Source of the DNA: Rhodopirellula sp.
GTDB taxonomy: Bacteria > Planctomycetota > Planctomycetia > Pirellulales > Pirellulaceae
Reading direction: 5' to 3'
Length of the DNA stretch: 64,000 bases
Assembly (NCBI GenBank): GCA_002701385.1
Contig: NZVD01000090.1
Span: 31,830-95,829 of the forward strand
Every line of letters starts with the position of its first letter. The stretch's first letter is position 1. The notes under the pieces are model-generated. The model was given only the letters and a program-made list of their open reading frames with translations. It was not told where the DNA came from and did not search any database. The position numbers were made by a program, and so were the translations under genes. Below are positions 18,924 to 52,673 of the stretch, one piece after another.

Positions 18924-20399
<1,476 letters not shown>

Positions 20400-21539: not shown

Positions 21540-21630
21540 CATTTAACCAATTAGCCATGTGGCATTGGACCGTTAGACAATTGTCGTCTTTTATCGTTGG
21601 CCTTAGGGAGACTGGAACTTCCTACTCAAG

Positions 21631-21691
21631 TTTTTTTAAAGAAACTTCTTTCAAGTGACCAACCGTGTCACTTCCCTTTACGATCATTCTA
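21631..21691 (+). promoter_or_regulatory. putative regulatory element, copy A: T7 run + GTGACCAACCGTGTCACTTCCCTTTACGATCATTCTA
   Basis: 37-mer at 21655-21691 is 30/37 identical (ungapped) to 52446-52482; central palindrome AAGTGAC-N7-GTCACTT at 21653-21673. Confidence 0.6.
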
Positions 21692-21764
21692 GTAACAATC
21701 ATTCTGAGATCGTAACCAAACTGATCCAACAACAATGGGTCAAGTTGTAAAAAGGAGTTTTACA

Positions 21765-21914
21765 ATGAGTAAAGTACTAATCAACGACGTACCTAAGGAC
21801 GCACTAGTTTTTTGGAATCGCCAGTGGTATGAATACTGCCAGTGGATTGAATTCAAACGCGAGTTGGAGCAGGAAGCGACCTGGTATTATCAGGAAGTGA
21901 GAAAACCCAAATAA
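21765..21914 (+). CDS. small ORF, 49 aa (MSKVLINDVPKDALVFWNRQWYEYCQWIEFKRELEQEATWYYQEVRKPK)
   Basis: Read directly from sequence; AAGGAG Shine-Dalgarno 7 nt before ATG; below the ORF track length cutoff; preceded by shared upstream element. Confidence 0.55.
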   Translation: MSKVLINDVPKDALVFWNRQWYEYCQWIEFKRELEQEATWYYQEVRKPK

Positions 21915-52382: not shown

Positions 52383-52420
52383 CTCTGATAGTTACTATCC
52401 GCGAAACTGATGATTTCTAG

Positions 52421-52482
52421 TTTTTTTACAAATTCCCCACGTGGTGTGACCTAACGTGTCACATCCCATTGCGATACTTCTA
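52421..52482 (+). promoter_or_regulatory. putative regulatory element, copy B: T7 run + GTGACCTAACGTGTCACATCCCATTGCGATACTTCTA
   Basis: 37-mer at 52446-52482 is 30/37 identical (ungapped) to 21655-21691; TGTGAC-N7-GTCACA palindrome at 52445-52463. Confidence 0.6.
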
Positions 52483-52520
52483 TCAGTCAAACAAAACCGA
52501 CCTGCATAGGAGGCCTAGCA

Positions 52521-52673
52521 ATGGCACAACGATGGCTGGAATCTGATCTCGACTCACTGTTCACCAACACCGAGCCACTGGAAATTGGCCGACTCGATGT
52601 AGAAGAATTCTTTGCTGAATTGGCAAAGCTTCTGAATGCTCGAAATGCCAATGATAATGAAGTAGCAGGTTAA
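52521..52673 (+). CDS. small ORF, 50 aa (MAQRWLESDLDSLFTNTEPLEIGRLDVEEFFAELAKLLNARNANDNEVAG)
   Basis: Read directly; AGGAGG Shine-Dalgarno 7 nt before ATG; below the ORF track length cutoff; preceded by the shared upstream element. Confidence 0.6.
   Translation: MAQRWLESDLDSLFTNTEPLEIGRLDVEEFFAELAKLLNARNANDNEVAG

Follow-up and report, generated by a model that had tools for sequence, protein, structure and literature searches.

A conserved palindromic element of predicted promoters upstream of recA and two small proteins in Rhodopirellula and its likeness to WYL-activated DNA-damage promoters

DriD is a WYL activator of Caulobacter crescentus with a regulon comprising didA, bapE, recJ and dnaG, of which DidA is a 71-aa membrane protein. 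The DriD consensus, ATACGAC-N7-GTCGTAT, overlaps the -35 region and lies at a fixed distance from the -10 (preprint, PMC12340889). The consensus of mycobacterial PafBC is tTGTCRgtg-8 nt-TannnT (PMC5656591), and mycobacterial recA is described as having a LexA box in addition to a WYL-type promoter. The WYL family also includes BrxR and CapW, which regulate defence islands (PMC9122588, PMC9122589). Hardly anything has been described of how planctomycetes regulate their response to DNA damage. The sole remark on it found in the literature searched is that the E. coli motif is not used by the LexA of planctomycetes, and no description of the element reported here or of a planctomycete WYL damage regulon was found in openly licensed papers.

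The window, that is the whole 64,000-nt stretch of Rhodopirellula sp. DNA which was analysed, contains two copies of a 37-bp element (21655-21691 and 52446-52482) identical at 30 of 37 positions without gaps. The sequences and coordinates given for them in an earlier note on this DNA were found to be exact, and both copies possess GTGAC-N7-GTCAC. The distance from the end of AGTTTTTTTA to GTGAC was measured as 16 and 17 nt, against the 17-18 nt claimed there. The reading frames of about 50 codons with strong Shine-Dalgarno sequences were also confirmed and encode proteins of 49 aa (A; ATG 21765, AAGGAG) and 50 aa (B; ATG 52521, AGGAGG). The features of the two loci are as follows.

21629..21638, + strand: T-tract AGTTTTTTTA of promoter A, about -66 to -57, with a T-rich stretch conserved at this place
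21655..21671, + strand: putative operator A GTGACCAACCGTGTCAC, pseudo-palindrome GTGAC-N7-GTCAC over the -35 region, found in 18/18 ortholog upstream regions and at recA
21682..21687, + strand: predicted -10 hexamer A, GATCAT (GATnnT), from counts over 66 sites
21694..21694, + strand: predicted transcription start A, from Y at position 39 and R at position 40
21765..21914, + strand: small protein A, 49 aa, Shine-Dalgarno AAGGAG at 21752-21757, with orthologs and a structure model
52419..52428, + strand: T-tract AGTTTTTTTA of promoter B, from position-wise counts
52446..52462, + strand: putative operator B GTGACCTAACGTGTCAC, conserved upstream of orthologs
52473..52478, + strand: predicted -10 hexamer B, GATACT, from comparison with DriD promoters and site counts
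52485..52485, + strand: predicted transcription start B, from site counts
52521..52673, + strand: small protein B, 50 aa, Shine-Dalgarno AGGAGG at 52508-52513, with orthologs and a structure model

When all same-strand pairs of 37-mers in the window were compared, the two copies formed the top repeat pair, followed by a runner-up with 29/37 identities, and the next-best match of copy A to the rest of the window reached 22/37. The combined pattern, which was derived from these two copies, gave 2 matches against 0 expected in shuffles. By itself, the 30/37 match would be marginal evidence and a weak case. The comparative evidence is judged to make the case decisive, because the 17-bp core is kept upstream of 18/18 A and B orthologs and recurs upstream of recA. 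Of the nine genomes of the genus, 8 have an ortholog of A, with 53-86% identity to the protein of the window across species, and all 9 have one of B. A B ortholog is also present in a single further genus (G012, 38%). All 18 possess the core TGACC-N4-GTGTCA upstream, followed by CGA ten bases on, and every ortholog found is preceded by GTGACC-N4-GTGTCAC-N9-CGAnnnT or a near variant, while their remaining intergenic DNA has diverged and is hardly alignable. This agrees with the earlier proposal of a selected cis element, and a recent duplication of the A and B regions was rejected on account of their unrelated flanks. In the G012 site both ends are altered jointly (TTGAC...GTCAA), as expected for a palindromic site.

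A search with the core identified a third exact copy in the same genome (G000:C2:42132-42148), upstream of recA, with the same T-tract and followed by CGATAG. Each genome of the genus holds two or three strong copies, belonging to small protein A, small protein B and recA. The earlier note had made its regulon depend on the genome holding more than two copies, and with the copy at recA the regulon stands. Exact TGACC-N4-GTGTCA-N10-CGA occurs 67 times in 118 relatives, against 12 times for a reversed control, 9 of them in one genome. A loose core pattern with one mismatch was no better than its reversed control (69 versus 72 in the same genome), so only its exact matches were used. A 76-column sequence model was built from 57 sites; in a scan of the genus it gave the A, B and recA sites, on which it had been trained, E values of about 1e-9 or better, with nothing further under E 0.2. 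Among GTDB genome contigs, GTGACC-N4-GTGTCAC-N9-CGAT was found in 98 stretches. About 51 of the 80 matches listed carry planctomycete names and 28 come from other organisms. The latter number is near the chance expectation for the full collection, roughly 30, as estimated from 17 fixed bases and 257 Gb. Rhodopirellula rubra, which is in culture, is one of the relatives that have a site.

The family-wide regulon is dominated by DNA-repair genes, and the small proteins to which the earlier note confined it proved too narrow a description. The largest group of genes downstream of sites is recA (15 distinct sequences), followed by AddB-like PD-(D/E)XK proteins (8), small proteins with an FYVQSG-like start (7), small stand-alone WYL-like proteins (7), a helicase (3), PriA (3), CsrA (3) and proteins B and A. 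A few of the listed sites are intragenic and probably chance matches. In two genera (G061 and G027) a site precedes a gene cluster that includes the gene for the WYL regulator. The stand-alone WYL-like proteins, of about 95-137 aa, are frequent targets (L116, L122, L219, L227, L234, L237, L257) and might feed back on the regulator. The FYVQSG-type proteins form a family of about 100 aa which starts with MxKFYVQSG or MSKYYVTCGS (L090, L091, L100, L230, L233, L235, L288); L100, the one member searched, had no match in Pfam or NCBIfam. HTH_17-type genes heading BREX (BrxF) and DISARM (DrmD) gene groups are also downstream of sites. In Pirellula, sites were observed ahead of BREX (BrxF) and DISARM (DrmD-like) groups (L093 and L240 on one contig; L267), tying phage defence to the same element. 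Sites ahead of csrA in several genera (L096, L105, L123) are unexpected for a repair regulon.

Promoter layout was analysed by position-wise counts over 66 sites, in which the invariant blocks sit where the search patterns demanded them. Apart from these, T at position 33 (T-7) was observed in 54/66 sites, Y at position 39 in 62/66 and R at position 40 in 55/66, along with a T-rich stretch at positions -22..-18 (about -62 to -58 from the start), none of which was demanded by the search. With GATnnT as the -10, transcription would start at position 40 (21694 and 52485) and the palindrome would extend from about -39 to -23. It overlies the -35 region, where no good -35 hexamer is present. This layout is predicted to be that of an activator-dependent sigma-70 promoter, with a palindrome over the -35, a GATnnT -10 and a Y/R start. 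Of the three possibilities named in the earlier note, the operator class was retained, while a leader RNA, riboswitches included, appears unlikely, as the palindrome is upstream of the predicted start. A sigma-70 promoter with GTGACC as -35 and TACGAT as -10 was rejected, the A of that -10 not being conserved, and so was a sigma-54 promoter (-24/-12), whose GC is not conserved. The T-tract was rejected as a terminator, since a clear hairpin precedes it at recA only.

The element shares several features with the DriD system. In the didA and driD promoters (sequences from PMC12340889), the second half-site is followed after 12 nt by CAAGGT or CAATCT; the -10 of these two was placed in this analysis by the rule in the source text, and placement and alignment of bapE are ambiguous. 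In A, B and recA, 12 nt likewise separate the second half-site from GATCAT, GATACT and GATAGT, so both groups have GAC-N7-GTC over the -35 and 12 nt to a weak -10. Both also have a LexA-independent operator with repair genes and a small protein as targets. The half-sites differ: the full outer half-site of DriD (ATACGAC / GTCGTAT) is absent and GTGAC is found here, so that the element, which appears to work like DriD, is not filed as a DriD site. Further differences are that recA itself is a target here and that the candidate regulator of 332 aa is only distantly related to DriD. With the PafBC promoter of RecA-NDp type (PMC5656591) the element has in common the geometry of GTC, 12 nt and -10. 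When GTGTCAC..GATnnT is compared with the PafBC consensus, spacing and TGTC match and gtg and T-12 do not. In both systems recA possesses a WYL-type promoter together with a LexA box. However, the PafB/PafC heterodimer reads one half-site, whereas the full palindrome here suggests a homodimer, and a single WYL gene beside thrC replaces the pafA operon; as a rule one strong WYL ortholog was found per genome, and no second WYL gene adjoined the regulator in the loci read. Likeness to BrxR and CapW lies in the WYL family and in the sites preceding BREX and DISARM genes, but in the genomes inspected the candidate regulator is encoded by a conserved gene that is not part of a defence island, and the main targets are repair genes. 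On its sequence layout, the element is classed as working like a DriD/PafBC promoter.

The candidate regulator is a WYL-WCX protein of 332 aa (G000:C23:32479-33474) encoded next to threonine synthase (thrC). It contains WYL (1.9e-12) and WCX (1.9e-11) domains and an HTH_11 match (7e-4) below the HTH_11 cut-off. Orthologs are present throughout the family, and their HTH region contains a stretch, SLHxR..RRD, that hardly varies. The match to DriD and PafC chains is weak (E about 1e-4) and covers the WYL-WCX part only. Taking a model E <= 0.01 as presence of a site, 54 of 118 genomes have both site and strong WYL ortholog, 7 the WYL ortholog only, 5 the site only and 52 neither (Fisher p 1.5e-19, inflated by shared ancestry). 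Within the family, with training genomes excluded, the corresponding numbers are 35, 6, 1 and 9 (p 1.4e-5, likewise inflated by shared ancestry), and the p value weakens to 0.0012 at a stricter site threshold of E <= 0.001. Outside the family, sites were found in G076 and G107 only, both with the WYL ortholog, though the one in G107 scores poorly (E 0.003) and a scan of this kind is expected to give about one match by chance. No WYL ortholog was found in the site-bearing genomes G004, G005, G012 and G070. In the first three, an assembly gap is a possible explanation because the neighbouring thrC is missing too. In G001 the WYL gene and thrC are both cut at contig ends. No strong site was found at the WYL gene in this genus, and a site suspected close to the WYL gene in G025 did not hold up.

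From what was observed directly, namely the element and its conservation, the promoter-like layout, the target genes, the common spacing and the co-occurrence with one WYL ortholog, we infer with good confidence that each copy is a WYL-activated, LexA-independent sigma-70 promoter of a DNA-damage regulon in Pirellulaceae-type planctomycetes, in which binding by the WYL protein, activation and damage as the signal are predicted and A and B would be part of the damage response. Once its WYL domains have taken up ssDNA arising from DNA damage, the WYL-WCX regulator would bind GTGACC-N4-GTGTCAC over the -35 as a homodimer. Bound there, it would keep RNA polymerase at a promoter that lacks a good -35 and has a weak -10 (GATnnT). 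DriD acts in this manner in Caulobacter, and PafBC does so in mycobacteria by a mode of its own. Its strong targets in this genus would be recA and small proteins A and B. The palindrome over the -35 would also suit a repressor, and lineage-restricted regulators co-occur by descent, so an operator of another dimeric repressor or activator, of non-WYL type and tracking the same lineage, was considered. This is improbable, as the spacing is the same as in DriD and PafBC promoters, the targets are repair genes, the WYL gene is downstream of sites in two genera, and within the family sites are lacking where the WYL ortholog is absent, apart from the site-bearing genomes named above. Planctomycetes possess many ECF sigma factors, and conserved blocks upstream of a start are what a promoter of an alternative sigma factor of this type would offer. 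The upstream block is, however, a palindrome whose inner half is too near the -10 for an ECF -35/-10 pair, and the -10 keeps A-11 and T-7 as in sigma-70. With nA-N3-T kept and Y/R at the expected start, this alternative is hardly credible.

That the element is the planctomycete LexA box of a classical SOS regulon is very unlikely. The presence of recA among the targets, as in the LexA regulon, the occurrence of LexA in 113/118 relatives and the published remark on the E. coli motif favor this view. Against it, lexA in the genus is without the GTGACC-N4-GTGTCAC element and is preceded by another conserved palindrome, AGTGTAC-N4-GTGCACT, which adjoins a -10 resembling TATAAT (L169-L178); LexA was set aside as regulator of the element for this reason. 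A box of the same AGTG-N10-CACT type is situated separately, between the element and recA, in 8/8 genus genomes checked (L101-L104, L107-L110), and this palindrome of lexA and recA is a candidate planctomycete LexA box. In addition, the presence of sites is not associated with that of LexA (p 0.68), and G017, G031, G054 and G058 have sites and no LexA over the cut-off. Returning to the WYL-activated promoter, the LexA-type box accompanying the element suggests that recA would be under double WYL/LexA control, by analogy with mycobacterial recA.

For the whole family, these results provide a candidate operator, promoter and regulator together with a list of targets, all of them open to testing, place recA under a non-LexA element, and reveal that two small proteins share their promoter type with recA. 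WYL-type damage control would extend from two studied groups to a third phylum, suggesting conservation of promoter geometry. More tentatively, and somewhat short of an even chance, planctomycetes may hold a third lineage of WYL-activated, LexA-independent damage response, in which recA is controlled by both WYL and LexA and which, in this genus, has shrunk to recA and two new conserved 50-residue proteins. These two would have a direct part in surviving damage, for instance by partnering RecA or blocking division. If true, the common GTC-12 nt-(-10) geometry would indicate a single, ancient type of promoter spread over three phyla.

The model of A is a single long helix (residues 11-46, mean pLDDT 80) and that of B has two helices at low confidence (mean pLDDT 68). 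No family was found for A or B in Pfam and NCBIfam, and a PDB fold search with the A model gave no match. Unlike the membrane protein DidA, A and B have no membrane helix by eye; a damage-checkpoint role for them, by analogy with DidA, is a guess. Linkage of genes A and B is maintained across the genus at a distance of 22-33 kb (window 21655/52446; G001:C193, G003:C201, G005:C1, G008:C11). Near gene A, the window also encodes a sigma-70 family factor with regions 1.2, 2, 3 and 4 (18924-20399, - strand), perhaps the primary sigma factor.
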